The notes below the pieces were generated by a model. That model ran no database searches. It saw only the letters and a program-made list of their open reading frames with translations, and was not told the origin of the DNA. Source: Candidatus Rubrimentiphilum sp. (GTDB lineage: Bacteria > Vulcanimicrobiota > Vulcanimicrobiia > Vulcanimicrobiales > Vulcanimicrobiaceae). Taken from it: a DNA stretch of 64,000 nt. The stretch is from positions 310,001 through 374,000 of the forward strand of contig DASTDE010000001.1 of assembly GCA_035710515.1 (NCBI GenBank), written 5' to 3'. Below are positions 1,339 to 30,190 of this stretch, in pieces. Each line of letters begins with the position of its first letter. Position 1 is the stretch's first letter. Made by a program: the position numbers and the translations under genes.

Positions 1339-2322
1339 TTACAAGGCGCCTTGCACTTTCCAAGACGCGAGCCTCTTTCTAACTGCTTCTTGGTAACGGT
1401 CGGTCGAGGTGATGCCGTCCACCTTTAGATCCTCTAAAAGAGCTGAATGTCCCGCGCTGTAACTTCGTGTGTGTCTTTCAACGCTGTCGAATTCGCAGAA
1501 ATCTTCGTGCCAATCTGACTGCCGTGCCATCGGCTGCGCATTACCAAGCGCATAAGTGTTCGTGAGCGTTGCTGGGTGCACGTACCCTGAGAGCATCGCC
1601 AGATACTGCGAATGAGGCACCAAACGGCCTATGCATGTCGGCGAATCAGGAAAAAGGCGTTCATCGTACAGCGCGATCATCAAGTCAGCGAAGTCTCGTC
1701 GTTGCCTTGCTCCAGTTGCCCCTACGCTGTTGTGTATGGGTATGCCGGCGACGAGGAGATCATAGCGCCAGCCAATGGCGGGATCTTCACTCGCGGTGTG
1801 TCCAATAATAGATCCCTCGCTGCCTTCGCCGTCAGAAAGCGTGAAGTAGAGCTCATCATAGTTCACGCCTGCCTCCAAAAACGCTCGCAGTAGCAAACGA
1901 CAGTCGTGATATTGGGCGCGCGTCCGAAAACGCGGTTGATCGTGCCCGCCCGACTCAAGCCACTCGGCATCCAAACTCAGCAAATCGCAGAGCCGATCTC
2001 CGTCAGAGAATGAAAGGGGCCGGTCACCGCGCAACTCGGCTTCAAGGACGCTCGGATCCTCGTGCCCGAGCGCGCGAGCGATCCTCGAAATCGTGGGAGC
2101 CGGCTGTAAAACCCGAAAACGTCCTAAGTCCTCAAAGTGTAATACCGCCGCCCGCGCACGCGCTGAGACCGCGGCTACGAGCGATTCGTTCGGACCGAAA
2201 ACTCTTCCGAGGAGGTCACGCAGATATGCTTCACGAGACCGCGCACCGGCTGCTGCTGCTGCTGCTTGTATTGAAGTAGCAATGTCGTCGGGGATATCGC
2301 GGATATTGAACGTAGCGCCCAT
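1339..2322 (-). CDS. FitA-like ribbon-helix-helix protein with large C-terminal domain
   Basis: Residues 1-40 (GATFNIRDIPDDI, then an Ala-rich helix, SREAYLRDLL) match the ribbon-helix-helix fold of FitA-type antitoxins: a beta strand with NIRD, then two helices. FitA is normally about 80 residues and sits beside a PIN toxin (FitB). Here it continues for about 290 more residues and no PIN gene is adjacent. Residues 75-130 (ISRIARALGHEDPSVLE, RPLSFSDGDRLCDLL) resemble a second helix-turn-helix. The rest is unrecognised. ATG 2322 is chosen because it starts the domain; an upstream ATG at 2358 lies across the operator. It is probably an autoregulated DNA-binding protein. Confidence 0.6.
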   Translation of the reverse strand: MGATFNIRDIPDDIATSIQAAAAAAGARSREAYLRDLLGRVFGPNESLVAAVSARARAAVLHFEDLGRFRVLQPAPTISRIARALGHEDPSVLEAELRGDRPLSFSDGDRLCDLLSLDAEWLESGGHDQPRFRTRAQYHDCRLLLRAFLEAGVNYDELYFTLSDGEGSEGSIIGHTASEDPAIGWRYDLLVAGIPIHNSVGATGARQRRDFADLMIALYDERLFPDSPTCIGRLVPHSQYLAMLSGYVHPATLTNTYALGNAQPMARQSDWHEDFCEFDSVERHTRSYSAGHSALLEDLKVDGITSTDRYQEAVRKRLASWKVQGAL

Positions 2323-9183: not shown

Positions 9184-9524
9184 CGAGCTAGAATGAGGCC
9201 TGGTGACGGCTTGTGGCCACGAACGGAGTTGCCGCGATTGAATGGTTCATATGGGTCGCCTCCCGCCGGCCGATTTCTCTCCCGAAAACGGGCCTTCTCC
9301 GGGCCTACCGTACTCCCCGGCCGAGGCAAGCGCAGGAACTAGCACAAATAACCTAGCCCGGGCCTCTGAGGGCCACGAAAGGCCCGGTTTCAGGCCGGAA
9401 GGACCGTTGCTTTGCGGCGCCGCAGGCCAGGACAGATGGCCTAGCTATGAGGGCCGGGGGTCTTATTGAGGAGCTCGGTGCATGATCCTAGCGTTCCGAT
9501 ATTGCTAGGGCCGGTAGCAAGCTG
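9184..9524. other. GC-rich intergenic region with regulon box
   Basis: It holds the ACTAG box at 9338-9357, followed at once by a perfect 8-bp hairpin stem CCGGGCCT/AGGCCCGG (9358-9387). GC-rich symmetrical DNA is spread over most of this stretch. No open frame inside it is convincing. Confidence 0.5.
9338..9357 (+). promoter_or_regulatory. ACTAG-N10-CTAGT box, copy 1
   Basis: ACTAGCACAAATAACCTAGC has the 5-10-5 layout, with one mismatch in the right arm. It lies 167 bp upstream of the GAF membrane protein gene. The centre CACAAAT is shared with copy 6. Confidence 0.55.
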
Positions 9525-10742
9525 ATGCGCTGGCTTGTAATATGTTTGTCTGCATTTATTTTGTGTACGGCGTATAACTACGCGGAGCTCAATCAGCTTC
9601 AGATCTTAGTCCATGCCAGCCGCGCGGTTCCGAGCACGCAATCGACTCCAAACGTGCTCGTGCACAGACCGCCCGTTTCGAATGGACATCGCACGACGAA
9701 AAATCCCTCCAAGGTCGCACACGCTCCCGCGCCTTCTGGGAGCACGGCCTTGTTGGGGCCATCCGAGCCGGCGCAGTATGCGCGCCTTGATCAGGCCACG
9801 CGCCTGTCGCTCTCGTGGGTTCGTTTTTGGAAAATCGAGGCGCTGATCCTCATTTTTTTCCTGGTTGCCGTTGCAATTTATGCTTTTTTTGCTGCGCGTT
9901 TCGGCGCCGACGTATCAGACAAGGACGCCATGCGCAGCATGCAATTGCTGCTGATTCTTGTTGGTGTTGGCGGAAGTCTAGCGCACATATTCTGGACCGA
10001 AACCAAGGGCTCGGCGAGTTATGTCCCCGCGTTTGATCTTGTTGCTCTGGGTTGGGTCGCGTTAGCATTGTTAGGATTTTTGCTTCCCAGACTCGAGGAG
10101 TTCGGCTTTGCCGGCGCGACGTTCAAACTCAAGGATACGATTAAGAACATCGGGGCGTTGACCGAGAGCGCGACCGAGCTATTACGGAACTGGGCGGAGT
10201 CTATCAACCTGCTAGCTGGATGGTTGGTCGACGATCCTGTGCTCGCCCCGGATAGAATCTTCGGATTTATTCGTGATCGTGCGGGTGAAGCAACAGAGTG
10301 GCTGAGCGCTCCGGGCGACGACGGTTTCATGCTGTCGGTTTGGAATTACGACCAAAACGGCTTACAGGTTCTCTATCCGAAGAAAATTGGCGAAGCGCCC
10401 GTGCACGCTCGGATTTGGCGGGTCGGCGAGGGTTGCTTAGGGCAAGCATTTCTCGAGCAACGGCTGTGGAATGAAAAGAACGCGAAGGCGTTACCGGCCT
10501 TCGTCCCTGTTCATAATGAATATCAGGATTACAAAGGGATTCTCTTGGTGCCGATTCGCTACGAGAATCAGAAATTGGGAATGTTGTGCGTGCGACGCAA
10601 ACAAGAAACGTACTTTGCGCCGGAGCAGGAGAATGTAGCTTGCGCGTTAGCGCAGGTCTTGGCATATGCCATGGGGAGCGCAGCGGCGCGCTCGGCTCTG
10701 AAGATCGCTGCAGCAGCCGCTCAAAGCAAAACGCCCGGCTAG
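9525..10742 (+). CDS. membrane protein with C-terminal GAF domain
   Basis: Domains in order: a hydrophobic N-terminus (residues 1-18, signal or first TM helix), a Pro-rich periplasmic segment to about 95, then three membrane helices (about 103-122, 140-155 and 168-188). A helical linker (LKDTIKNIGALTESATELL) leads to a cytoplasmic GAF domain (about 235-395: MLSVWNYDQNGLQVLYPK, GEGCLGQAF, KGILLVPIRYENQKLGMLCV). No kinase or cyclase follows, so it is a receptor without an output domain. Start ATG 9525 is natural. It may sense redox state or a small molecule for the regulon; that is inferred from the shared box. Confidence 0.75.
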   Translation: MRWLVICLSAFILCTAYNYAELNQLQILVHASRAVPSTQSTPNVLVHRPPVSNGHRTTKNPSKVAHAPAPSGSTALLGPSEPAQYARLDQATRLSLSWVRFWKIEALILIFFLVAVAIYAFFAARFGADVSDKDAMRSMQLLLILVGVGGSLAHIFWTETKGSASYVPAFDLVALGWVALALLGFLLPRLEEFGFAGATFKLKDTIKNIGALTESATELLRNWAESINLLAGWLVDDPVLAPDRIFGFIRDRAGEATEWLSAPGDDGFMLSVWNYDQNGLQVLYPKKIGEAPVHARIWRVGEGCLGQAFLEQRLWNEKNAKALPAFVPVHNEYQDYKGILLVPIRYENQKLGMLCVRRKQETYFAPEQENVACALAQVLAYAMGSAAARSALKIAAAAAQSKTPG

Positions 10743-10781
10743 CACTTCGCCGGACGTTCAAAACAAAATCAGGAACGAAGT

Positions 10782-10982
10782 TTAATCGGTGCCGAGTTTC
10801 TCCCGCAACGTCTGCAGTTTCTCGATTCTCGCCGCTGGGCTAGAAGAGCTGACAAGACGCTGGACGCGTGAGGGCTGGCCCTCAGCAACGGAACCGATCG
10901 TCTCCTGGAGCAGCGAACCGTACTCTTCAGGCGATAGGTCCGGCATGGCTGCTGCCGCGCCTTCGTTATCCTTGCCGTGCAT
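10782..10982 (-). CDS. small hypothetical protein, 66 residues
   Basis: A short soluble protein starting MHGKDNEGAAAAMPDLSPEEY and ending in a charged helix (AARIEKLQTLREKLGTD). Composition is protein-like and the ATG is followed by a continuous frame, but the ribosome binding site is weak. It lies convergent to the GAF protein gene and divergent from the LuxR-type gene. No family was recognised. Confidence 0.45.
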   Translation of the reverse strand: MHGKDNEGAAAAMPDLSPEEYGSLLQETIGSVAEGQPSRVQRLVSSSSPAARIEKLQTLREKLGTD

Positions 10983-11118
10983 ATATGAGATTGTACCCTA
11001 CTGTCGCTTGCTGCGCTAGTAACCTGGGCGATATCACCGTTGCGGCTCGCTCAGCGGGCTTACCGTCAAGGCGCAACCCTTCGACGCGCTGAAAACATTT
11101 GATCGTCCGATGAAGATG

Positions 11119-11138
11119 ACTAGTAGCTTTTGCCTAAG
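11119..11138 (+). promoter_or_regulatory. possible ACTAG-N10-CTAGT box, weak copy 2
   Basis: ACTAG-TAGCTTTTGC-CTAAG keeps the left arm and three bases of the right arm with the same spacing. It ends 11 bp before the GTG of the LuxR-type gene. If real it suggests autoregulation. Alone it would not be significant. Confidence 0.35.
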
Positions 11139-11149
11139 GAACAACCCTC

Positions 11150-12697
11150 GTGCTACCTAAGACCCTTAAGGTTCCGTCTCGCCGACTCTCAGGATCGCGC
11201 AATTGGCTGGAAGAGATGAGCCGAGCGTACGGATCGGCTGAGTTCGGAATCGCGGCAGCCGTTTTTGACGCGAATGCTGTTGCCCGCCTGCCCTATGAGG
11301 CTGTGCTGTGGCGTGCGCGTATCTATGCCAAGAAAGAATTTGCCGCTGCGATCAGATTCCTGATCGATCACCCTGCACCCAAAGGTGCTCCGGCGGCTGA
11401 GGCAGAGCGTCACATGCTTCTCGGCATGGCCTACGGTCGTTCGGAAGATCACGATCTTGCTGAAGAGCATTTTCGGACCGCGCAGCGGCTCGCGCAATCG
11501 GCCAAACTCCGCGACCTGCTTTCCGAAATCGTGTATTGGTCGGCACGAGAGTCTGTCGCAATCGGGGACCTGGAGCGAGCCGAAGGCAGTTTTTCTAACC
11601 TTGCAAATCCTCGGACCTTTAAGGCTCGAGTGCGAGCCCTCGACTTGCAGAGTCTGATTGAAGGCCGGCGGCAAAGATATCAAGATCAGGCCGCGACGCT
11701 AACTGAGCTGCTCCACTTCATAGATCAATCTCGAGAGCCGGCGCCGGAATTCGCCGTCTGGGCCACACACACATTAGCAGGCCTCGCTCGCGAAATGCAT
11801 CTTCCGAGCGCGCGAGCAGTCATCGAGTCAGAGCTAGCTGAATCCTGGCCCGAATATTTTCGAGAGAACCGCTTTCAAACGGAAAAGGCGCTGGCGTGGA
11901 GCTGTGCTCTCCAAGGGGACCACTTCAACGGGTTTCGGTACTTGAAGGCGGCCGCCTCGACCGCGCCTGACGATGCATGGAGAACTATGGCGCTTTTGGA
12001 TCGGGCGTATCTCGCCAAATGCATTGGCGAGTCGGCGTGGTCGCGTCAAGAGCTTGCCGAAGCCGAAGAAGTATCGGCGCGAGTCGATTGGCGCAGCAGA
12101 GACGGTGAGGAGCGGATCGCGCTCCTCTTGTTCGCCGAGCTTTTCGCGCCGCTCGATCGCGGAAAGGCAGCCTTCTATTTGGCTCAATTCGGATCTCCGG
12201 GCACTTTACGTGATCCGTTGCTCAATTTTGCTTCCGGCGACGAACGTTTGCAGGCGATTGCGAAATATGTCCACGGAGTCGTTGAACTCACGCTGGATCA
12301 CCGCAAGCAAGGGCTACGTTCCCTTCGCGACAGTTTCGCGATCTTCGACCGAGTTGGATATGATTGGCGGGCTGGCCGAGCCGCCTTACGCATCTATGAG
12401 GCTACGCGCGATCGCTCGATTCTTGCAATCGCACGCGAAAAACTCAAGAACTATACCGCGAGCTGGCTTGGACAAGACTTGATGAAAGTCACTAAAGGTG
12501 GCGTTGACCTGACGCGGATGCAGGAGAAGGTATTTTTGGAAATCTGCCGCGGATTCTCTACGACTGAAATCGCGACGCGGCTTAAACTCAGCGAATCTAC
12601 CGTGCGAAACCATTTGAGGTTGGTGTTTGAATCTTTTGGCGTGAACCGTCGCACGGCGCTCTTAGCGGAAGCATCGAAACGCGGATTGCTTCCATAA
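11150..12697 (+). CDS. LuxR-type regulator with helical-repeat sensor region
   Basis: 515 residues. The first 440 are a series of helix pairs of TPR type (LLGMAYGRSEDHDLAEEHFRT, YVHGVVELTLDHRKQGLRSL). The last 60 are a LuxR/GerE HTH with TRMQEKVFLEICRGFSTTEI and the recognition helix LSESTVRNHLRLVFESFGVN. It resembles MalT-like regulators without the ATPase domain. GTG 11150 has poor ribosome binding site support; ATG 11216 (MSRAYGSAEFG) is an alternative. It is the prime candidate for reading the ACTAG boxes: lux-type HTH dimers bind about 20-bp palindromes, and a weak box lies at its own start. Confidence 0.75.
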   Translation: MLPKTLKVPSRRLSGSRNWLEEMSRAYGSAEFGIAAAVFDANAVARLPYEAVLWRARIYAKKEFAAAIRFLIDHPAPKGAPAAEAERHMLLGMAYGRSEDHDLAEEHFRTAQRLAQSAKLRDLLSEIVYWSARESVAIGDLERAEGSFSNLANPRTFKARVRALDLQSLIEGRRQRYQDQAATLTELLHFIDQSREPAPEFAVWATHTLAGLAREMHLPSARAVIESELAESWPEYFRENRFQTEKALAWSCALQGDHFNGFRYLKAAASTAPDDAWRTMALLDRAYLAKCIGESAWSRQELAEAEEVSARVDWRSRDGEERIALLLFAELFAPLDRGKAAFYLAQFGSPGTLRDPLLNFASGDERLQAIAKYVHGVVELTLDHRKQGLRSLRDSFAIFDRVGYDWRAGRAALRIYEATRDRSILAIAREKLKNYTASWLGQDLMKVTKGGVDLTRMQEKVFLEICRGFSTTEIATRLKLSESTVRNHLRLVFESFGVNRRTALLAEASKRGLLP

Positions 12698-18953: not shown

Positions 18954-21206
18954 CTATCCGATTGCGGAACGCTTTGCGATAATCTCTGCGTATCGTTTCG
19001 CTGAGGGAGTTGCCACGCGCTCCAGATTAGGATCGTGATCGAGGTCGATGCGATAGATGCCGAAATCGCTGTTTTCGTCGAACGTAAGCCCCCATTCCCG
19101 ATTCGAGGTTATGCTCCAACACAGATAAGCTTCGACTGGAACGCCATCGGCAACGGCACGTTGGACCTGGTAAATGTGCCGCTCGAGATATTGGGAACGA
19201 GAGACTCCGTCAGCACTAGGAACGCACCCATTCTCGACGACAATGATAGGCTTCCCGGGAAACTGTTGCTGCTGCTCTCGGAGCAGATCGTACAATACCT
19301 CCGGCCAGACAGGTGCGTTTGCATAGCGGGATTCGGCTGCGGAGGCGAGATGCTGCAATCTCGATGGCCAAAGCGTTCTTACTCCCCAATAGTAGTCCAG
19401 TCCAACGTAGTCAAGCTGACCGATGCATTCTGCCGGGCACAAAAATTCGGGGAGCTTGCCGGCCATGCCAAGATTCCACCAGTTAGTCGCGACGATCGTG
19501 GTTAACATCGAGATCGTTCTGCGGAGCGGATCGAGAAAACGCAACCACGACCGAGTGGCGTTCAACCGTGCCTGTCCACTCAAGGAAACGAACAAGACAC
19601 GGTCCTTCCCGGGACCGAGAATTCGCTGAGCCACGTAGTTCGCGAGGTCTATTTCAAGCCCGCTGTAGCTACCCGAGGCGTCCTGCATACAAAGCCCAAC
19701 AACACCGGGATGCACGCCGACGCGTAGCAGTCCCCGATTTCGTATTGCTTGTAGTGACTTGTCGAGATCAGGCACTTCGATGCGTGAGCTCGAGCAGACT
19801 GGCTGAGCCGCCGCCTTTCCGATGTTCGCTACAGTTTTGCGGTTATCGACGTTTGGCGGGCTGTCGTGAGCTAATCCCGGGAAAGCCGCTTCCATCGCTT
19901 GGTCCCAGCGTGAAAGACCCGAAGCGTCGCGAAGCTTGAACTCGCGAAGGGCAATATCCACGGCGTTCAACAGCGTGCGGCTCCCAAGAGCCATGGCAGC
20001 TGCAAACGGTTGGTCGCTCCCGGCGACGTTGACCAGCACGAGCCCGTCGCTCACGTATTGTCGCAGAACGACGTCATCGTCAAAAACGAGGTCAATTTCG
20101 CCACGGGAAAGGCCGGCCATCGTATCCGCCGTTTTTTGGAAGCTGATAATCGAAGCCGCGGGGAAGAATGTTGGAGCTTGATAGGCTGGGGCGGTGTTGC
20201 GCGTTACGCCGATGCGGCCAGGCCAAGTGGCCAAATCGGCGGGCAAGCTGAGCGTTGCCGGATGCAGAGCGCAAAGATGTGCGATGAAGTAGGGCTCCGA
20301 GAACAAGACCTGGTCCATCCGATTTTGTGTGAGGGTGATCTGCGCGATTGAAAGGTCGACGGCGCCGGACTCCAGGAACTCGCGCTGTGACAAAGTACGA
20401 CTTTGCTTGCGTACGTCTGCGGGGTTCCGAACACGTGTAGCTCGCCGATCAACAAGAGCCTGCAAGCATCGCGGTAATCCTAAAATAAGCGGGTTAGCTC
20501 CCACTCTAGCCGTGGGGTGCACTCCACGAATCGCTGTTCGCGCGCGGCTGTGGGCGCGAAACAGATTTGGGATTAAGCGCAATACGGCATCCATCTGCTC
20601 GGCTGAGGTGGCAAAAGGCTCTAGCCCGGGCGGCATTGGATAAGCGCGCATCCCCCAGCCTTTGATGAAGCCGTAGACCAACTGATTCGGTTCATTTATC
20701 GTAACGTAATAGTCAATCAGATCGCCGAGTTGCTCGGCAACCTGGCGCGCATAAGCAGCGAACAATTCGGGGAATCCCGCGTCGAGAAGTCCTGCGCCGG
20801 CTCCGGACGCTTGGACATGAATGGGCCACGTATTGTGGTGCAATGTGACGACGGCGACCATGTCGGCGTCGCGGATCCGTTGCAGCACCTGTCGATAATG
20901 CGCGAAGGCCTGGCTATCCCACTGGCCGGCTGCCGGCTCCAACGTCGCCCAGGACAATGACAGTCGGAACGCGCGGCATCCCAGCTGGCGTGCCGTTTCG
21001 ATATCTTCGCTGTACCGATTCCAAAAATCGGTTGCTTTCCCGCGCGCGGTCAGACCGCGCACTGCCTCCCACCGATCACGAATATCGTCCTGGCCGGGAA
21101 TGTGCGCCTCACATTGGTGATCTGCGGTTGCGACGCCAAAGCGAAAGGAAGCGGGGAACTGGGGTATCACGGCACCCGCAGTGGCGCCGAGCGGCCATCG
21201 AAGCAA
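18954..21206 (-). CDS. GH1 glycosidase with inserted, permuted solute-binding domain
   Basis: A family 1 beta-glycosidase. The acid/base motif is VTINEPN (near residue 172) and the nucleophile motif is VENG (near 665). Between the two GH1 halves lie about 320 extra residues resembling a type 3 periplasmic solute-binding domain in swapped order. The C-terminal half comes first (FLESGAVDLSIAQITLTQNR, VLFSEPYF) and the N-terminal half second (IRNRGLLRVGVHPGVVG, YSGLEIDLANYVAQRILG). TTG 21206 is chosen because AAAGGAG lies just upstream; GTG 21236 and GTG 21170 are alternatives. No signal peptide is seen. It may be a glycosidase gated by a small ligand; it is coupled to the GMC oxidase. Confidence 0.8.
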   Translation of the reverse strand: MLRWPLGATAGAVIPQFPASFRFGVATADHQCEAHIPGQDDIRDRWEAVRGLTARGKATDFWNRYSEDIETARQLGCRAFRLSLSWATLEPAAGQWDSQAFAHYRQVLQRIRDADMVAVVTLHHNTWPIHVQASGAGAGLLDAGFPELFAAYARQVAEQLGDLIDYYVTINEPNQLVYGFIKGWGMRAYPMPPGLEPFATSAEQMDAVLRLIPNLFRAHSRARTAIRGVHPTARVGANPLILGLPRCLQALVDRRATRVRNPADVRKQSRTLSQREFLESGAVDLSIAQITLTQNRMDQVLFSEPYFIAHLCALHPATLSLPADLATWPGRIGVTRNTAPAYQAPTFFPAASIISFQKTADTMAGLSRGEIDLVFDDDVVLRQYVSDGLVLVNVAGSDQPFAAAMALGSRTLLNAVDIALREFKLRDASGLSRWDQAMEAAFPGLAHDSPPNVDNRKTVANIGKAAAQPVCSSSRIEVPDLDKSLQAIRNRGLLRVGVHPGVVGLCMQDASGSYSGLEIDLANYVAQRILGPGKDRVLFVSLSGQARLNATRSWLRFLDPLRRTISMLTTIVATNWWNLGMAGKLPEFLCPAECIGQLDYVGLDYYWGVRTLWPSRLQHLASAAESRYANAPVWPEVLYDLLREQQQQFPGKPIIVVENGCVPSADGVSRSQYLERHIYQVQRAVADGVPVEAYLCWSITSNREWGLTFDENSDFGIYRIDLDHDPNLERVATPSAKRYAEIIAKRSAIG

Positions 21207-21287
21207 CGCGCAGTGTCTCCTTTGAGGACCGATCACCCGATCGAGTGGCGACTGGCCCGCGGCTCCACGGGCGCGGGCCCGATCAAA

Positions 21288-21493: not shown

Positions 21494-22909
21494 ATGACCA
21501 CTAGCCCAACGCGGCGGCGTTTTATCGGCGCCGCAGGCGCTATCGCATCGACTACGCTAATCGGCTCGTCTCTATTGAACGCTGGAATCGCCGAGGGCGC
21601 CGGACCGTTTGTGAGACGTGATATTGGCGGCTTGATGGCGACCGATCCGATCATCGTTTCGTATCGAAAGGCCGTCAAAGCTATGCAGACGCTTTCGATG
21701 AATAATCCTAACGATCCGCGAGGGTGGGCGTACCAAGCCGCAATTCACGGGACCCGGACGATGCCCACGAAGCTCGCCTGGAACACGTGTCAGCATGGAA
21801 CGCTGTTCTTTTGGTCCTGGCACCGGATGTACTTGTACTGGTTCGAGCGGATCGTCCGTAAGATGTCGAGCGATCCGACGTGGGCGCTTCCATATTGGAA
21901 TTGGACATCCGCTAGCGAACGGCACCTCCCGTCGATGTTCCGCGATGTTACTAGCGAGCTGTATACGCCGAACCGGAATCCTTCATTCAACGATGGGACC
22001 GGCTCGCTTCCGGCGACGGACGTCGATTACAGCGCGGCGTTCGCGTTTGCTGGCTTTGCGGACGCAAACGGCTTTATCCAGGGAACTCCACATGGCGACG
22101 TCCATGTTGACATCGGCGGCTGGATGGGCGACGTGCCTACGGCGGCGCAGGATCCGATTTTCTATTTGCATCACAGCAACATCGATCGCCTGTGGAATCT
22201 GTGGCTCGCGCAGGGCGGAGGACGGACGGATCCGCTGGCAGACAATCCATGGAAAAACACAATCTGGACTTTTTTCGACGAGAACGGCGCTACCGTGCAC
22301 ATGACCAGTTGCGATGTTTTGCGCGCCGCGCTGCAGCTCAACTACCGGTATGAGGGCGAGCCGGCTCAAGTGAATGAGTATTGTCGTCTCTTTTTCAAAC
22401 CGCCTATCCCTCTTTATTATCGGGTTCCTTTTCTCCACATTCCCGTTCCGCCGGAGACGCTTGGGCAAGAAAGAGTCTCGTTTCCATTATTCAACACGGC
22501 TCCGCTAAGAGAAAAGCTTTTCGGATTAGCGGAGAGCCAGACAAGAACGCTCATGTTGGATTTTAGCAACGTGGTCGCGCAGCGTCAGCCGGGCGTCGTT
22601 TGGGAAGTGTACGTTGGTTTGCCTGCGAATGCCGCAGCGAACCCAAAAGGCCCCTTTTATGTAGGCAATCTCTCGCTTTTTGGGACGGGCATAAGAAGCG
22701 ATACCCACGGCAATCGCGAGTTCCAGCCGGCGAGATTCAGCTATGCAATAAATAAGGCGGTGGCGGCTTCGTTACGGCTAAATGAGGAGCGTGTCACTGC
22801 GACATTGGTGCCACACGGCATTCTGATCAACGGTAAACCTTCAACTCCGAAGGTGTTGTCGCCCGTGCGAATCGGGCAAGTCAACATTTTAGTCGAACAG
22901 CGCCGATAA
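21494..22909 (+). CDS. Tat-exported tyrosinase (type 3 copper)
   Basis: A binuclear copper phenol oxidase/monooxygenase. A twin-arginine signal (SPTRRRFIGAAGAIASTTLI) opens the protein. The CuA site has H85, H101 and H110 (CQHGTLFFWSWHRMYLYWFE); C99 could form the thioether seen in many tyrosinases. The CuB site has H200, H204 and HH at 226-227 (PIFYLHHSNIDRLWNLW). A C-terminal domain of about 190 residues may cap the active site. ATG 21494 has a GGAG site; a TTG at 21464 is less likely. It heads the operon with a 59-residue peptide gene 48 bp downstream. Substrate could be a phenol or a peptide Tyr. Confidence 0.88.
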   Translation: MTTSPTRRRFIGAAGAIASTTLIGSSLLNAGIAEGAGPFVRRDIGGLMATDPIIVSYRKAVKAMQTLSMNNPNDPRGWAYQAAIHGTRTMPTKLAWNTCQHGTLFFWSWHRMYLYWFERIVRKMSSDPTWALPYWNWTSASERHLPSMFRDVTSELYTPNRNPSFNDGTGSLPATDVDYSAAFAFAGFADANGFIQGTPHGDVHVDIGGWMGDVPTAAQDPIFYLHHSNIDRLWNLWLAQGGGRTDPLADNPWKNTIWTFFDENGATVHMTSCDVLRAALQLNYRYEGEPAQVNEYCRLFFKPPIPLYYRVPFLHIPVPPETLGQERVSFPLFNTAPLREKLFGLAESQTRTLMLDFSNVVAQRQPGVVWEVYVGLPANAAANPKGPFYVGNLSLFGTGIRSDTHGNREFQPARFSYAINKAVAASLRLNEERVTATLVPHGILINGKPSTPKVLSPVRIGQVNILVEQRR

Positions 22910-22957
22910 GCGCCGGGCAGCCGAACCGGGACAGTAATCAATCTGAGGAGCAATCGA

Positions 22958-23137
22958 ATGAGTAATACGGACTATAATGCGGTTCGAGAGAGGCTAAGAA
23001 AGAGTGAATTGAGCCACTCGGACGTCGAGATTCTGGATCAAATGCTCAGAGAACGCGTAGAAATGGGGGATCTTGGTGAGATAGGGGGCCGACGGATCAT
23101 CGCGCGGCTTCCGAACGGTATGGACATTATCAAGTAG
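22958..23137 (+). CDS. 59-residue peptide, possible precursor
   Basis: A short gene with an excellent ribosome binding site (GAGGAG, 7 nt before ATG) between tyrosinase and the diiron protein. It starts MSNTDYNAVRERLRKSELSH, is strongly charged and helical to about residue 36, then has EMGDLGEIGG at 35-44 and ends RRIIARLPNGMDIIK. The 'ELS ... L ... I-GG' pattern resembles double-Gly leader peptides, giving a 15-residue putative core. It has no Cys and a single Tyr (Y6). It lies 7 nt before the next gene. It could be a modified peptide precursor or a small partner protein; no protease or transporter is nearby. Confidence 0.7.
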   Translation: MSNTDYNAVRERLRKSELSHSDVEILDQMLRERVEMGDLGEIGGRRIIARLPNGMDIIK

Positions 23138-23144
23138 CCCAAAC

Positions 23145-23822
23145 ATGGGATTTCGCGACGATGTCGATGCTACGATCGCAAACGAAGTCACCATGTTTCT
23201 CCGCACCGTTCCATATGCAAGTCACCTCACGGGTGAAGGTCGCCTAAACGAGGCTTATTACCTACGACACCGCATTGAAACGATAAAGCGGATTAGACTA
23301 ACGGCTCGATTAGACGCTTTAGCGCTCGCTCAGTTTATCGTAATGGATTACGAGGCCGCGCGCACGTGGGCTCGGTATGCTTGCACTGAGCTTGACCACG
23401 ATCGTCTGTTTTTGGCGGACCTTCAGGCTCATGGTGTCACCGCTAAAATGGTGGCGGACACTCAACCGTTTCCCAGTACGCTGCGAATGATCTCAGCTCT
23501 GGAGCGGGAGATCGAAACAACCGGGCCGACCGCTACGATCGCTTACTCGCTGTTCGTAGAATGGAATTCTGAGCGCTATTCTGCATTAGTGACCGATAAG
23601 GTTGAGTCGCAGTTCTCCCGCGATCATGTTCGTGGTTCTCGCGCGCATCTGAAGATCGACGACGGTGAGGATCACTACAACATGATCTTGACATTGGCCG
23701 CGGGGTTAGGCCGGCGGTTTGGGAATGAACAGATTTTACAGTACTTGCGTGAGATCGGAGCCTTCTTTCGAACCTATTTTGAAGAGCTGTATGAGCAGAC
23801 TTCCGCTAAAGCAGTTTCGTGA
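23145..23822 (+). CDS. haem-oxygenase-like diiron protein
   Basis: A 225-residue all-helical protein of the iron-containing redox / HDO superfamily (relatives include CADD, UndA, BesC and SznF). Candidate metal ligands appear in the expected order: ELDHDRLFLADL (about 85), VEWNSERYSAL (about 145) and AHLKIDDGEDHYNMIL with H-D-H spacing (about 165-180). Such enzymes use O2 for C-C cleavage, N-oxygenation or ring cleavage of amino-acid-like substrates. It has no visible ribosome binding site and starts 7 nt after the peptide gene, so it depends on coupled translation. It ends overlapping the next gene by 4 nt. Confidence 0.75.
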   Translation: MGFRDDVDATIANEVTMFLRTVPYASHLTGEGRLNEAYYLRHRIETIKRIRLTARLDALALAQFIVMDYEAARTWARYACTELDHDRLFLADLQAHGVTAKMVADTQPFPSTLRMISALEREIETTGPTATIAYSLFVEWNSERYSALVTDKVESQFSRDHVRGSRAHLKIDDGEDHYNMILTLAAGLGRRFGNEQILQYLREIGAFFRTYFEELYEQTSAKAVS

Positions 23823-24799
23823 ACGTCACAGTGTGTGGCGCCGGCGCCGTGGGCAGCACCCTTGCGGCTGTACTTTCTACAGACCCAGCAACCTCCGTCC
23901 GCGTTCTCTCCGGCTCGAGGAGTGCGCGGCGCCGACAATTCGAGATTCTGGTTGGGCGCGACATCCTTTTAGGTTACGTCAACCTGATCTCTCACGATCC
24001 GGCTGAAGCGGTCAAAGACGCCGATATTGTCTTTCTCGCGGTTCCTTCACATGTGCGAAGCGATATCCTATCTAGCATTCTGCCGTATTTGCCTCGTCAC
24101 GCGTGCTTATTGTCGCTTCCCGGCAACGGTGGACTTGATCGACAGATCCGCGCCGTAACCCAGCACTCGTTTTTGGGCTCGCGCCGGACGCCTTTCACGG
24201 TTCGATCGAGTTTCGATTTCGACGCTGCAGTGACGGGTGTTGCAAATTGCATTGAACTTGCCGGTTCAGGTGACACGCAGAACATCGTCCCATGGCTGGA
24301 AAGCTCACTGAATATTCCGGTGAGATTAGTGTCGTCTTTCGAGAGTATTACACTTTGTCCGGCAAACGCGGTAATGCACTCCGCGCGCCTCGTCAGTGTA
24401 ATGATGAATGGTGCTGCACTGTCTCGACCGTTAGGTATGTATTCAGAGTGGGATGACTGCGCGAGCGAGATTGCCCTGCGCATGGACGAAGATATCAAGA
24501 CGGTCACGAAGGCTTTGCGTATCAACGATTTGCCAACCTTGAAGGAGCATTACGGCGTTGTTACGGCTGCACAGCTCACGAAGCGCCTGCGAGGGTTGGC
24601 ATCTTTATCTGGCGCCATGATTCCAATGCGAAAATCGGGAGATCACTACGTTCTGGACGTAGAGAATCGCATTGTTAAGGAGGAGGCACTGTGCGGGCTG
24701 CCGGCAATGCTCGAGACGGCCCGTTGCGCGGGAACACCCGTTCCCACGTTGCAGGCAATCACTGAGGCGCTTCGTGGCTTGTGCTCGGTGCCTGTGTGA
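23819..24799 (+). CDS. octopine/opine dehydrogenase-like protein 1
   Basis: An NAD(P)-dependent enzyme of the opine dehydrogenase family, which reductively joins an amino group to a 2-oxo acid or runs the reverse. The N-terminal Rossmann fold shows CGAGAVGSTLAAVL at 5-18. The C-terminal helical domain begins near residue 180 with LCPANAVMHSARLVSVMMNG, the place where the family has its conserved N-x-x-x-H, and the Asp-rich MYSEWDDCASEIALRMDEDI follows. GTG 23819 overlaps the diiron gene stop by 4 nt. 326 residues, slightly short of typical 350-400. It probably acts on the product of the diiron protein. Confidence 0.72.
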   Translation: MNVTVCGAGAVGSTLAAVLSTDPATSVRVLSGSRSARRRQFEILVGRDILLGYVNLISHDPAEAVKDADIVFLAVPSHVRSDILSSILPYLPRHACLLSLPGNGGLDRQIRAVTQHSFLGSRRTPFTVRSSFDFDAAVTGVANCIELAGSGDTQNIVPWLESSLNIPVRLVSSFESITLCPANAVMHSARLVSVMMNGAALSRPLGMYSEWDDCASEIALRMDEDIKTVTKALRINDLPTLKEHYGVVTAAQLTKRLRGLASLSGAMIPMRKSGDHYVLDVENRIVKEEALCGLPAMLETARCAGTPVPTLQAITEALRGLCSVPV

Positions 24800-25908
24800 A
24801 CGTCTGCATCTGCGGGAACGGGAGCCTCGCGCATGCATTAGCCGTCGTGTTCTCGGCAGCCGGCTTAGAAGTCACAGTATTAACGCCTGACGCGGAGGCG
24901 TGGCGTTCGACCCTGCTCCTCTACTACAAAGACTGCGTTCTCGTCGGCCAAGGCATCTTAGCATCGCACGATGCTCGTACCGCGGTACGGTCCGCCGATA
25001 TCGTGATTTGCGCCGTTCCAGCGTCTCAGCGCATCGAACTACTATCCAATATAAAACCTTATCTAAAAAGCCGGGCGTTTGTAGGTTCGTTTCCCGCGGC
25101 TGGCGGTTTCTTTTGGACCGCATCGGCGGCTCTCGGTGATCGCGTGCTCTTTGGGACTGACCGCGTGCCATACGTCAGAGCCGCAGTTGATTACGGGAAA
25201 TCCGTCGAGGTGACCGGGATACGCAGGAGGCTGCTCTTGGGCACCCGGCCATCATCATTTTCAGGGCATCTGTCGGCAGTAATATCCGGAGCGCTCAACA
25301 TGCCGATCGACCCGGACGCTGGTTGTATGTCCGTCATGCTTGCGACGACGAACCCGATCGCGCATCCACCGAGAGTGTATTCACTCTTTAACGGTGCTGC
25401 TCAAGATTACGTCTATCCGGAGGTACCTCGTTTCCTGGCCGATTGGGATACCGAAGCCTCTCATATGCTCCTCTCCTTGGACGATGAACTCAGCGCGTTG
25501 AGTCGATCATTGCCGGCTGATACCTCGAGCCTCAGGCACGTCCTACAACACTTCGAAGTCACATGTTGTGCTGAGCTGACCGAACGTATGCGCAATATCG
25601 TTGCGCAAGACCACGTCTACGCTCCGCTCATAAAAAACAGAGACGACACCGGATATGTCGCGGACCTTCAGTCGCCGTATTTCGTAGAAGACTTTGAATA
25701 CGGACTTACCGTCCTCAGATCGCTTGCGGAGCTTGTAGGTGTCGAAACGCCAACGATGGACCGTCTCCTGACGTGGTACGAACGGTTCACCGGGCGCCGC
25801 TTACTAAAACATGGAACCCTGCGGAATGAGTTCACGGCTGGGCTGCCATTGCCTTGGAATTGCGGGATAAATGACGCAACCGACTTGGGTCGATTCTGTA
25901 ACGCATGA
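24796..25908 (+). CDS. octopine/opine dehydrogenase-like protein 2
   Basis: A second member of the same family, 370 residues. Its Rossmann start CGNGSLAHALAVVFSAAG parallels protein 1. The C-terminal domain has TTNPIAHPPRVYSLFNGAAQ, containing the N-x-x-x-H of the family, then PEVPRFLADWDTEASHMLLS. The GTG at 24796 in GTGTGA overlaps the preceding stop, the same device as at protein 1; a GTG 15 nt upstream is possible. The two are divergent in sequence rather than a fresh copy, so they could form a heterodimer or catalyse successive steps. It is the last gene of the operon. Confidence 0.75.
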   Translation: MNVCICGNGSLAHALAVVFSAAGLEVTVLTPDAEAWRSTLLLYYKDCVLVGQGILASHDARTAVRSADIVICAVPASQRIELLSNIKPYLKSRAFVGSFPAAGGFFWTASAALGDRVLFGTDRVPYVRAAVDYGKSVEVTGIRRRLLLGTRPSSFSGHLSAVISGALNMPIDPDAGCMSVMLATTNPIAHPPRVYSLFNGAAQDYVYPEVPRFLADWDTEASHMLLSLDDELSALSRSLPADTSSLRHVLQHFEVTCCAELTERMRNIVAQDHVYAPLIKNRDDTGYVADLQSPYFVEDFEYGLTVLRSLAELVGVETPTMDRLLTWYERFTGRRLLKHGTLRNEFTAGLPLPWNCGINDATDLGRFCNA

Positions 25909-26275: not shown

Positions 26276-27175
26276 CTAATCCAGCAGGCTTGGCGGGAGG
26301 CTGTTCCAATCCGGTTCGGCTCGCAGGAGGCGCCTGAACGATCGCTCCTCGCCGAAGCCGCTTCGGTAGAGCGCCAGCCCCGGGCCTAGCTCTTTGAGGG
26401 ACCGCAGCGCGTGTGCGCGCCGTATCGACGTGGTGTTATAGCCTTTGTGCCCGTGACCAATTTTTGCAAGAGCAAGTCTTAATGGAACGCCTACAAGCGC
26501 GTTCACCTCTTGAAATGGCTCATACCAGGTGTTGATCCTGGCCGAACCCTGTGTCAGCGGAAATACATATGCTTGAGGGTCAGTTGGAGCCCCCGCGATC
26601 CGCAGCCAATCTTCGACGGCTGCGACGGCACAGTAGGTCGGATCCTTGGATTTAGGTACGGCCATCTGCCGATAAGCGTGCGCGTGAGATGGTAACCAGC
26701 GCAACGTTATCCCCTTTAGCTTTCGCCTTGGCTTGATCCAACCGAGTTTCAGCTGGGACAAACTTATCTCGGCTAGACCGGTCCACCAGACAAGCAAGTG
26801 CGTCGCGCGGGCTCTTGAACCGAAGAATGTGTCGGGACGAAAAGTTGCCAAGACTTGCCGAAAATCCGATTTCAGCATGAGCGGTGAAGGGTCATTCGGT
26901 GGCTTTACGTGGGCGCTTCGTTTGAGCTGTGCAAGAAAGGCCAGCACAAGCTCATGCTGTTCCTCGAGTTCTGCCTTTCGATTTGGGCCGATCTGGCGAA
27001 TAGCACGGGCCATATTGTCGAGCGTGTGGTAGGCATATCCGTTATCCGGGTCAACGAAGGATTCCAGCCAGGCAATTTTGTGCATCGCATTGACTTGACG
27101 ATCCACCACACCGTGTGTTGCCAAGAACTGCCGAAATCGCTTGCGGTAGGCGAGCACGTTTTGCCGAGCTTTCAC
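26276..27175 (-). CDS. third trio recombinase, catalytically degenerate
   Basis: 299 residues with an N-terminal helical DNA-binding part (FLATHGVVDRQVNAMHKIAW) and a C-terminal domain aligned to tyrosine recombinases. The first catalytic Arg region reads WWTGLAEISLSQLKLG, where the family has G-x-R. The C-terminal box keeps SIRRAHALRS, but the usual H-x-x-R and terminal Tyr are not seen. The Cys pair present in its two upstream relatives is reduced to one. It starts with ATGA overlapping the second gene. It is probably a structural partner rather than an enzyme. Confidence 0.6.
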   Translation of the reverse strand: MKARQNVLAYRKRFRQFLATHGVVDRQVNAMHKIAWLESFVDPDNGYAYHTLDNMARAIRQIGPNRKAELEEQHELVLAFLAQLKRSAHVKPPNDPSPLMLKSDFRQVLATFRPDTFFGSRARATHLLVWWTGLAEISLSQLKLGWIKPRRKLKGITLRWLPSHAHAYRQMAVPKSKDPTYCAVAAVEDWLRIAGAPTDPQAYVFPLTQGSARINTWYEPFQEVNALVGVPLRLALAKIGHGHKGYNTTSIRRAHALRSLKELGPGLALYRSGFGEERSFRRLLRAEPDWNSLPPSLLD

Positions 27176-28098
27176 CGAGAGGGGTCCAGTGCGGACCGCG
27201 CACGCTGCATTAGCACGTCATCGTCGACATATCCGAAAGTTGCGAAAATATGTTTGTGTCGAAGTTTACGTTGAATTCTGTCCCAGGGCCAATTTGCAAC
27301 CACTGCGCCGGTCGCCGCCCCCCGTCGTGTGGAGTAGGCTGAGTAGCCCTTGGGCGAGCAACCTACGCGTCGGAGCGTATCTTTCAGCGATCGCGTGAAA
27401 CTGCCGGTGGCCACCACTGAACATCCGATCTTATACCCGGGCCGGAACGTTGGAAAGAGTAGTCCTCGATGATTCCATCCAAGGAAATCGATCCAATCTT
27501 TCAGCGCGCAGACTGGACAGATCGAGGCATCTGCTGTGTGCGCAACCGGAATGAATTCCGGATCGCCACTTTGATTTGTTTTTGAACGCGAGATTGTCAG
27601 TACGATTCCCTTGTCGTATGCAGCAAGTATGCCGGCAGGATATCGTAGCCTGAGTACTTCGCTCGGTCGACACCAGGTATCACACAGCAGCAACAGAATC
27701 GCTTTCAGCCGACGCTGCCAGGGATATTTAGCACTAAGAGCCTGCGCGCACTTGCGCATCAGCCGGGGGAGAAGTGGCTTGGCTTTGCGCGGCGCTTCGC
27801 ACAGGCGCTTGCAAAGGCGTCGCGCGAAGGCGTGCGAGCGCCGCGTGATCGGGCAGCGTTGTCCGGAAGCGCGGTATGAGCTCTCAATGCTGACAACAAG
27901 GTCGGGCAATGTTCGGCGAAACGGCCGTTCTGCTGTGCGGCCCGTTCTATCATAAGTAACTGGTCGAGTTGTACAATACGAAAGAAAAGCGAAGATGTGG
28001 GGATCTTCTCGGATCATATCTGGCTCAACACAGAACCACTCTTTGGCGAAAGCTTCAAGTTGCTCGCGATGAGTGCGCCGCTGAACGTCACGCGTCAT
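27172..28098 (-). CDS. second trio tyrosine recombinase
   Basis: 308 residues. The catalytic set is visible: Arg in CDTWCRPSEVLRLRYP, the second box YSTRRGAATGAVV, LRHKHIF and the Tyr in ATFGYVDDD. A Cys pair (ASICPVCALKDW) lies in the middle. ATG 28098 is chosen because it gives a normal length and an 11-nt overlap with the upstream gene; a longer frame to 28212 would overlap by 125 nt. It works with its neighbours in moving or maintaining the element. Confidence 0.72.
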   Translation of the reverse strand: MTRDVQRRTHREQLEAFAKEWFCVEPDMIREDPHIFAFLSYCTTRPVTYDRTGRTAERPFRRTLPDLVVSIESSYRASGQRCPITRRSHAFARRLCKRLCEAPRKAKPLLPRLMRKCAQALSAKYPWQRRLKAILLLLCDTWCRPSEVLRLRYPAGILAAYDKGIVLTISRSKTNQSGDPEFIPVAHTADASICPVCALKDWIDFLGWNHRGLLFPTFRPGYKIGCSVVATGSFTRSLKDTLRRVGCSPKGYSAYSTRRGAATGAVVANWPWDRIQRKLRHKHIFATFGYVDDDVLMQRARSALDPSR

Positions 28099-29263
28099 GA
28101 CGCCATCCGCGATCCGGATCAGTGGACTCGGCGGTTTGTTTATCGAGAAGTGAGTCAGACGGCACCCGCTGCCATGGATCGATCTGCTCAATATATGCGC
28201 GTAAACCGGCACGTGAACGATGGAGAGTGGTATGCATGATCTCCTCGTCAGACCAGCCCTGGCGGATGCCTTCCTTGACTACCCAATGCCGGTACGAATG
28301 ACTTGTATAATGTTCATAATGCGGGACACCAGCCCGACGAAGATTATGTCTCAGTAAATAGCTCACGGATTTTGGGGAAAGCGCACGTTCGCCAACGTGA
28401 TCCCAGCGGTCTATCTTACGAAAAGCAGGCCCGCGCGGTAAATTCAACTTTTGGACGTAATGATGCAATGCGCACGGCGCGCAATTGACATGTTTCTTTT
28501 GATGCCGAACGCCGACCCAGTAGAGTTCATAGGTTGAGTCGGTCTTTTGGTGTCGCCAGCCTATAAGCACTCCCTTTGGCTTGAACGTCAGATGCTCTAG
28601 CCGAATACTGGTGATGCTAGCGCCACGGAAGCCTCGATTTGACCCCAACGTCTCGATCGCAGCGTCCCTTGCGCCGCGTAGCGTTTCAGTTTCATGCGAC
28701 AACAGCTTGGTAATGACTGGTCGAGACAATGGTTTAGCCTTGTGCGTAGCCCGGTGATCAAAACGGGCCAGCTTGCGCATGAGCCTCTTGTGTTCGGACG
28801 TTCGCGTGGGAGATGTTAGGCCGTATTGCCGGAATAACGCGGCAATCCCGGCCGCGTGCCGTAGCACGGTGCGATGTCGCCGACACGGTCGCCCTTCGGC
28901 TTGTGGTTCACTCGCCAGCTGTGTGAAATAACTCCTCCAGAACTCGCGCGTCGGCATTAGGAAATCGAGCTTTGCCGATTCGGTCGCCGCAATGTAATGG
29001 CGTTGATCGCCTGCGTACGCGCGTTCCGTGTTAGGGCGATCCTCGTCCGCTTGTTCTAGTGCAAGGTCGACCAGGCCGGCCAGCTCAGACGACATTTCTC
29101 GAACGGATTGCGCCGGTTCCGAAAGCATGAATTCCTTCAGGCGAGCACGTCGATCGGCCACGCTGGACGCGCTGGGGCGTGGCCAAGAAACTGGCCCGGA
29201 CTTTGGTTTACGGCGGTTGGCGGTGCGCCCAACCCGCGCATCGGGATCGGCGACAAAATGCAT
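28088..29263 (-). CDS. first trio tyrosine recombinase
   Basis: 391 residues. An N-terminal SAM-like helical DNA-binding part (residues 65-150, including TERAYAGDQRHYIAA and FWRSYFTQLASEP) precedes the catalytic domain. Catalytic residues: Arg in SNRGFRGASITSIRLEHL, SHSYRHWVV, LHRSRAGLRAY with the final Tyr. A Cys pair lies in NCAPCALHHYV. ATG 29263 is fixed by a strong GAGGAGAG ribosome binding site; the open frame runs on upstream without a better signal. It heads the trio operon. Confidence 0.75.
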   Translation of the reverse strand: MHFVADPDARVGRTANRRKPKSGPVSWPRPSASSVADRRARLKEFMLSEPAQSVREMSSELAGLVDLALEQADEDRPNTERAYAGDQRHYIAATESAKLDFLMPTREFWRSYFTQLASEPQAEGRPCRRHRTVLRHAAGIAALFRQYGLTSPTRTSEHKRLMRKLARFDHRATHKAKPLSRPVITKLLSHETETLRGARDAAIETLGSNRGFRGASITSIRLEHLTFKPKGVLIGWRHQKTDSTYELYWVGVRHQKKHVNCAPCALHHYVQKLNLPRGPAFRKIDRWDHVGERALSPKSVSYLLRHNLRRAGVPHYEHYTSHSYRHWVVKEGIRQGWSDEEIMHTTLHRSRAGLRAYIEQIDPWQRVPSDSLLDKQTAESTDPDRGWRHDA

Positions 29264-29557
29264 TGCTCTCCTCCTCAATTCAGAAGGAGAGCATCTTAAT
29301 TTATTGCGGCAGTTTGCGTAAATTGACGATGGATGTACGTTTGCGCCGGCAAGCGCGATGTGCATTCGCCGCGTCGACAAGTTTTGTTTACAAGACTTGG
29401 TCTTGGACCAAGAAGTGGCGGCGGCTTCGCGTTCAATTGGTGTCTTCCTCGCACCTTTTTTGATGGAGGGCAGGCGCAGGAGAGAACGCGCGCGTGCGAC
29501 GTATGCTGATTCGGTGAGCGTGGTTTTTCCCCTGGTGGCTCCGCTGTGTTTTGGTGA

Positions 29558-30190
29558 ATGTTGAAGAATGAGTGTGCCGTGCGTCAACGTCAGGCGATGT
29601 ACGTTGACCGAGTGAGAGCGTCGTTTTGTGCGCAATTGCTGCTCGAAGTTGCTCGCCACTTTAAAATGTCACGTGATGACTGGGCGGCTCTGGTTCAAGA
29701 TGGAGCCAACCAGAACAGACCAAAGACGCAGAGCAAATACATCGCGGTGCGGTACGGCTTCCAAGGGATTTTGGAATCTGATTTGAGAGCGAATTGTCGC
29801 GAAACAAGCGCGCATTGCAGACAGCGCGGCGCATGCTCTCACCAGAAGGCTCTGCTTGTCGAGATGGAAAACGCCGTGGAAGAGATTCTTCGAAGCCCCG
29901 CTGCGTTTGGGCATCACCTTGTGTGTCCAGAGGAGGAATGCTGTCAGGCAATGGTTTCGGACTGCGAAGCGATGCTGAGGCGCTATCCGCGACTGTACGC
30001 GGCAGTAGGCGAGCTCGTCCTGAGGGATTTTCGGCACGTCCTGCCGCGCCTGACGCGAGCCCCACGGCGCCCTCGACCGGCGCCGCGGAGACAGAATTCG
30101 ACCTTGCCCTGCATTTTCGCGCTGCTCCTGGCCGGGGTCGCGTGGATTCCCGCGTGTAGTATCCCGATACTGTGCACCCAACCGCACTGA
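29558..30190 (+). CDS. hypothetical protein, doubtful 3' part
   Basis: A 210-codon frame. Residues 14-165 look protein-like (ASFCAQLLLEVARHFKMSRD, LRANCRETSAHCRQRGACSH, CEAMLRRYPRLYAAVGELVL) with several Cys and His, but no family is recognised. The last 40 residues are Arg/Pro-rich and then hydrophobic and run 19 nt into the RNase J gene, as if read-through past a lost stop. It could be a decayed gene at the border between accessory and core DNA. Confidence 0.35.
   Translation: MLKNECAVRQRQAMYVDRVRASFCAQLLLEVARHFKMSRDDWAALVQDGANQNRPKTQSKYIAVRYGFQGILESDLRANCRETSAHCRQRGACSHQKALLVEMENAVEEILRSPAAFGHHLVCPEEECCQAMVSDCEAMLRRYPRLYAAVGELVLRDFRHVLPRLTRAPRRPRPAPRRQNSTLPCIFALLLAGVAWIPACSIPILCTQPH

Follow-up and report, generated by a model that had tools for sequence, protein, structure and literature searches.

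MboA, the oxidase of mangotoxin biosynthesis, desaturates the C-terminal Arg of a tripeptide; the C-terminal carboxylate of the substrate ligates Fe1, and Asn57, Asp61 and Asp139 hold the guanidinium (PMC13185094). VarO is a heme-oxygenase-like diiron oxidase (HDO) in the pathway to the thiovarsolins, which are ribosomally synthesised and post-translationally modified peptides (RiPPs), and genetic evidence supports β,γ-dehydrogenation of Arg (PMC6511847). In the biarylitides, an 18-bp gene encodes the entire precursor, a pentapeptide, and next to it lies the gene of the oxidase, a P450 that crosslinks aromatic residues (PMC13417212, PMC12951456). Here we describe an operon in a stretch of 64,000 nucleotides from Candidatus Rubrimentiphilum sp. 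(contig DASTDE010000001.1, positions 310,001 to 374,000; hereafter the window), in which genes for a tyrosinase, a 59-residue peptide, an MboA-related HDO and two opine dehydrogenases (ODHs) follow one another. We consider it likely that this locus was acquired by horizontal transfer and specifies a RiPP-like pathway, with the HDO oxidising a ribosomally made pentapeptide at its C-terminal Lys.

The proposal is carried by the end of the open reading frame (ORF) directly 5' of the HDO gene, which reads [MLF]-D-[ILVT]-[IV]-K-stop in 10 of 10 loci, from the phylum of the window, Burkholderia, Paraburkholderia, Mesorhizobium, Rhodobacteraceae, Mariprofundaceae and one gammaproteobacterium. Across 410 kb scanned on both strands, made up of the window and the loci of the HDO family and its relatives, the motif has 10 occurrences, all of them immediately 5' of a gene of the HDO clade; as it was derived from the same loci, the count measures restriction to one place and was not predicted blind. 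The motif is also present in loci that were picked up afterwards by their HDO only (L024 and L025; wider stretches L058 and L059), though these are close Burkholderia relatives. Three genomes have no more than an 18-bp gene (a minigene) as their precursor, with a Shine-Dalgarno sequence followed by codons for MDIIK or MDTIK: AAAGGAGAAATAAT-ATGGATACCATTAAATAG encodes MDTIK in a gammaproteobacterial metagenome-assembled genome (MAG; locus L002), AGGAGGCCGTC-ATGGATATCATCAAGTAA encodes MDIIK in a Rhodobacteraceae MAG (L003), and AAAGGAGGGAGCC-ATGGATATCATCAAGTAA encodes MDIIK in a Mariprofundaceae MAG (L005), where the reading frame also runs on from an upstream transporter gene. No longer dedicated peptide was found at these three loci. 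Five-codon ORFs that end in Lys and have a Shine-Dalgarno sequence before them exist at three places only in the 410 kb, namely these minigenes, each of which is also the sole Shine-Dalgarno-preceded five-codon ORF of any sequence at its locus.

In the window the pentapeptide stands at the end of a longer peptide, within an operon laid out as follows:

21494..22909, + strand: tyrosinase gene (PF00264, E=3e-35), with a Tat-like start
22958..23137, + strand: precursor peptide gene, 59 aa, with a charged leader and the conserved C-terminus LPNG-MDIIK
23117-23119, + strand: Gly codon before the pentapeptide, the Gly being kept in all leader-type precursors
23120..23137, + strand: pentapeptide unit M-D-I-I-K plus stop, identical in amino-acid sequence to all that the 18-bp genes of L003 and L005 encode
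23145..23822, + strand: MboA-related HDO, proposed desaturase of the C-terminal Lys
23819..24799, + strand: opine dehydrogenase 1 (ODH-1), GTG start, Octopine_DH family, syntenic with Ms_ODH1 and Pc_ODH1
24796..25908, + strand: opine dehydrogenase 2 (ODH-2), GTG start, orthologue-like to Pc_ODH2 (37%, 1e-72) and Ms_ODH2

The five ORFs and their spacings (48 nt from tyrosinase to peptide, 7 nt from peptide to HDO, and 4-nt overlaps between HDO and ODH-1 and between ODH-1 and ODH-2) are exactly as placed by a first-pass annotation of the window, and the good ribosome binding site that it gave the peptide gene is present as GAGGAGC about 8 nt 5' of the ATG. Its choice of families was also upheld. 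The tyrosinase has, besides its PF00264 match, six candidate copper His residues (85, 101, 110, 200, 204 and 227) and a CxH motif; both ODHs match PF02317 (Octopine_DH) above cut-off (E=9e-14 and 4e-20), the best PDB match being N-(1-D-carboxyethyl)-L-norvaline dehydrogenase (1bg6) for ODH-1 and octopine dehydrogenase (3c7a, E=7e-21) for ODH-2; and the diiron HDO is matched by MboA (see below). As for the twin-arginine translocation (Tat) signal ascribed to the tyrosinase, a Tat-like start (RRRFIG) is present, but the TIGR01409 score is below cut-off.

The 59-residue peptide had zero matches in Pfam and NCBIfam. Its homologues (P0006, P0007 and P0009) are present in four independent leader-type lineages, and peptides of 64-75 residues are encoded directly 5' of the HDO gene in Paraburkholderia caribensis, Burkholderia stagnalis and Mesorhizobium, with the C-termini LPIGLDLVK, LPIGFDLVK and LPFGFDIVK (LPNGMDIIK in the window). 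The coding region, leader included, is under purifying selection, with a ratio of nonsynonymous to synonymous substitution rates (dN/dS) of about 0.05-0.2 among the Burkholderia homologues. Because homologues occur in four leader-type lineages and are held by purifying selection, the 59-residue peptide is a real, conserved gene, beyond chance; the earlier idea that the operon is biosynthetic and contains a true precursor-like peptide was right, and the grouping of peptide, HDO, two ODHs and tyrosinase is kept in three other lineages. Conservation is uneven along the peptide, with 5 of 9 columns invariant at the C-terminus versus 4 of 50 elsewhere (Fisher P=0.002), so that the even conservation which the first-pass annotation had named as refuting its idea was not observed; the leader part is partly conserved, also between phyla. 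Where the first-pass annotation had suggested aligning the C-terminal 15 residues against the first 44, the conserved part is instead the last nine residues, LPxG[MLF]D[IL][IV]K, and chiefly the last five. The double-Gly leader and 15-residue core proposed there had to be given up: conservation does not extend to the window's Gly-Gly, and the invariant, processing-like position is a single Gly, which immediately precedes the pentapeptide in all leader-type precursors. Membership in the double-glycine-leader peptide class was rejected on the same ground, GG or GA before the core not being conserved across homologues. The unit is instead the C-terminal pentapeptide, because the 18-bp genes encode only this unit, while the longer leaders end in Gly before it. 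In Paraburkholderia mimosarum (L004), the precursor is a long repetitive ORF with the terminal sequence SGLDVIK, in which about 290 residues of RSLRDEELRAELADRAA-like repeats stand ahead of the terminal GLDVIK (L004:5788-6660).

The HDO matches PF14518 (Haem_oxygenas_2) below cut-off (5e-5), and MboA is its one strong sequence match in the PDB (phmmer E=8e-22). An AlphaFold model (AF2, five sequences) has a predicted local distance difference test score (pLDDT) of 91 and an all-helical heme-oxygenase fold, with structural matches to 3dde (Z 22.6), CtCADD (21) and HrmI/UndA (19); MboA was not among the Foldseek/VIA structure matches, which is uninformative, as the library entries end at 8 April 2026. 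The predicted 3-His/3-carboxylate diiron ligands (E82, H85, E139, H168, D172 and H177) are invariant in all members of the clade, as are a candidate base, Y78 (Tyr82 of MboA), and D57 (Asp61 of MboA); in the alignment, the window HDO also retains Asp90 of MboA. Of the three Arg-guanidinium contacts of MboA only Asp61 is retained in the window HDO, Asn57 and Asp139 being replaced in the clade by Thr53 (Phe in one member) and Ser135. This alignment suggests that loss of the Asn57 and Asp139 contacts, with Asp61 kept, suits Lys in place of Arg.

In the tree, the motif-linked HDOs form one group of nine sequences (support 97/94), which the tenth, from Mesorhizobium, joins weakly on a long branch. 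Positions 53/57/135 read T-D-S in the motif-linked group and F-D-S in Mesorhizobium, N-D-N in mangotoxin-like ATP-grasp clusters, and L-E-S or S-H-S in others, as would be expected of a clade that has a substrate of its own. The motif was absent upstream of 32 other MboA-like HDO sequences, mostly from Burkholderiaceae. The broader proposition that every MboA-like HDO has a ribosomal minigene was rejected, since no conserved short ORF was found upstream in the other clades sampled. Relatives had been collected by a scan of genome contigs, which gave four, and by tblastn of plasmids, which gave the P. caribensis, B. stagnalis and Mesorhizobium clusters; only known clade members were returned when profiles were run against 398 Pseudomonadota, 293 Rhodobacterales, 318 Alphaproteobacteria and 78 genomes from the class of L005, and viral contigs gave zero HDO relatives.

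The genes for the peptide, the HDO and the two ODHs are syntenic in four lineages (the window, P. caribensis, B. stagnalis relatives and Mesorhizobium), the Burkholderiaceae clusters adding PhyH and a methyltransferase. All four have a tyrosinase gene no more than a few kb away, on varying strands and at varying distances, with other oxidases and secreted peptidases around it that differ between clusters. The neighbours at minigene loci are genes for EamA transporters, LysE-type exporters, ATP-grasp, PhzF, aminotransferase, sulfotransferase or desaturase. As ODHs and tyrosinase recur in leader-type clusters but not in the stretches read of minigene-type ones, the core module is peptide plus HDO. 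Thus, where all the enzymes had been taken as partners of the peptide, this applies universally to the HDO, but not to the tyrosinase or the ODHs. Near these loci we also observed, in P. caribensis, a LodA/GoxA-type quinoprotein that carries, as a fusion, a second HDO-like domain (Haem_oxygenas_2, aa 676-853; L063:1446-4856, - strand), and in L003 a related large HDO (9387-11549), 1.7 kb after the minigene HDO. An amine-oxidase/lipoxygenase fusion of 1325 aa (L055:19144-23121) is conserved beside the Burkholderia clusters. A Cys/Ala-rich peptide of 77 aa with repeated AAHCAAHAAHCAAN (L055:8021-8254, - strand), encoded in B. stagnalis a few kb from the HDO cluster, beside a DUF692 enzyme (multinuclear non-heme iron-dependent oxidase, MNIO), radical S-adenosylmethionine and methyltransferase genes, likely belongs to another RiPP.

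From the genes, their conservation and linkage, the motif and the diiron ligands, we infer the following pathway. The ribosome would make a short precursor with [Met/Leu/Phe]-Asp-[Ile/Leu/Val/Thr]-[Ile/Val]-Lys at its C-terminus, which is very likely the substrate of the HDO. The free Lys at the C-terminus of this pentapeptide would enter an MboA-like pocket, in which one acidic contact for the Lys amine is kept. In leader-type clusters, the window included, a fairly probable cut after the conserved Gly would free the pentapeptide, and therefore the exact unit that the minigenes translate directly. By analogy with MboA and VarO, the HDO might then desaturate the C-terminal Lys (β,γ), a step to which we give even chances; hydroxylation or another oxidation is also conceivable. 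An alkyne is less likely and an alkene likelier, because no MboB-type flavin/Fe2S2 reductase is annotated in the neighbourhood of the window operon; ATP-grasp ligases are likewise absent from these annotations. Finally, the two ODHs would condense an amino group, either the N-terminal amine of the modified peptide or that of a released amino acid, with a keto acid; an opine-type end product is put forward only tentatively.

Several points weigh against this pathway: the stretches read around the minigene loci contain neither ODH nor tyrosinase; neither a dedicated protease nor an exporter could be recognised in the window operon, nor an MboB-like reductase near it; and a pentapeptide is too short to prove homology alone, so that the case rests on position and recurrence. 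In a variant of the pathway, possible but in our estimate doubtful, the peptide is a disposable scaffold from which the modified Lys is released by proteolysis and converted by the ODHs to an opine, such as an unsaturated lysopine-like compound or a metallophore. Opine dehydrogenases normally use free amino acids, ODH-2 is matched best by octopine dehydrogenase, and EamA and LysE-type exporters and amino-acid enzymes surround the minigene loci, all of which would fit; yet it is the whole pentapeptide and not Lys alone that is conserved, and a dedicated peptidase was not seen in the window operon.

It is improbable that the short ORF is instead a regulatory leader or arrest peptide, in which stalling at ...IIK-stop would control translation of an HDO acting on a small molecule. 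Conservation does peak right before the stop codon, and the minigenes lie 70-90 nt upstream of the HDO gene, with a stable stem-loop in between at L003 (6895-6935) and L005 (6902-6935) (GTAGCCAATGC...GCATTGGCTAC and GCAGCCAATGC...GCATTGGCTGC; z -3.5 and -3.2), in which one base pair is changed on both sides and which has no T-run. However, L002 has no stem-loop of note between minigene and HDO gene (z -0.2), the stem-loop being present in two related loci only; the leader-type peptide and HDO genes abut or overlap, with no space for an attenuator; the leader is under purifying selection and conserved between phyla; and the nearest characterised HDO works on the basic C-terminal residue of a peptide.

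The GC content at third codon positions (GC3) is 0.55-0.65 for most genes in the first 29.7 kb of the window versus 0.7-0.8 beyond, with a step at about 29.7 kb, just before which lies one further feature:

26276..29659, - strand: three tandem overlapping tyrosine-recombinase-like ORFs (recombinase-in-trio-like), of which only the middle one matches PF00589

The trio is the mobile-element boundary of the island, outside the pathway. The operon was probably acquired horizontally, because of the GC3 shift, the recombinase ORFs at the junction and the presence of the HDO in no other of 149 genomes of the phylum; no second HDO was found there, either among 60 relatives searched with P0003 or in the 149 genomes searched with an HDO profile. 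Elsewhere in the window, a tRNA-Pro(agg) that ARAGORN called at 2068-2163 (- strand), within ORF 1339-2358, may mark an attachment site of the island or be a false call, and in a family-1 glycosidase ORF (18954-21236, - strand) a solute-binding-protein family 3 domain (aa 286-433) interrupts the GH1 domain. That the operon sits in a compositionally unusual island next to recombinase genes, and that the neighbouring oxidases and peptidases vary from cluster to cluster, could mean that tyrosinase, peptide, HDO and ODHs are mobile neighbours without a common pathway; we give this very little weight, as the peptide-HDO-ODH order and tight spacing recur in four lineages, but it may apply to the tyrosinase alone, given its varying strand and distance. 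That the peptide is a small effector of the HDO (a regulatory or electron-transfer docking subunit) and not its substrate deserves hardly any credence, for although the N-terminal part of the longer versions is partly conserved, three loci encode five residues only, too short for a folded subunit.

As in RiPP pathways, a gene-encoded precursor lies beside a modifying enzyme in all ten loci, and the contrast in conservation described above divides leader from core, the minigene loci having no leader. It could go either way whether this is a new class of RiPPs, carried by horizontal transfer into two or more phyla, in which an MboA-type desaturase acts on the Lys of a pentapeptide encoded by an 18-bp gene or a leader tail and ODHs turn the product into a peptide-derived opine. 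If so, the oxidase would add an alkene, perhaps alkyne, handle to the C-terminal Lys of an encoded five-residue substrate that is easily synthesised and varied, and opine dehydrogenases would be new RiPP tailoring enzymes. Near-invisible 18-bp precursor genes would exist beyond the biarylitides, with more RiPPs hidden from gene finders, and the coexistence of leader-bearing and leaderless precursors of one unit would be a natural test of the purpose of leaders.

The first-pass view that no described pathway has this set of genes is correct for the set as such, but MboA is a characterised relative of the HDO, and an HDO in a RiPP pathway is known in VarO. Literature searches on ODHs with RiPPs, on ODH-tyrosinase clusters, on dehydrolysine with diiron enzymes and on HDOs with precursor peptides brought up no description of the combination, most subscription journals being outside our coverage; in the literature covered, precedents exist singly (VarO, MboA, the biarylitides) and the combination is unreported. 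MboA belongs to the same HDO superfamily, is the nearest solved structure by sequence and shares the diiron ligands, the Tyr base and Asp61, and its substrate is, as proposed here, a short peptide with a basic C-terminal residue. It differs in the Arg contacts Asn57 and Asp139, replaced in the window HDO, and in that its peptide comes from ATP-grasp ligases and not from the ribosome, with the MboB reductase needed for the alkyne (PMC13185094). VarO is likewise an HDO acting in a RiPP pathway, but the thiovarsolins use repeating APR cores and YcaO/TfuA thioamidation, with no Lys-ended pentapeptide and no ODH. The biarylitides share a complete precursor that is a pentapeptide in an 18-bp gene adjoining its oxidase; here, in contrast, the oxidase is an HDO instead of a P450, some clusters carry a long leader on the pentapeptide, and the pentapeptides, with at most one aromatic residue each, fall short of the crosslinkable aromatics of biarylitides. 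With the opine dehydrogenases (3c7a and 1bg6), both window ODHs have PF02317 membership in common, and they differ from them in being linked to a ribosomal peptide and an HDO.

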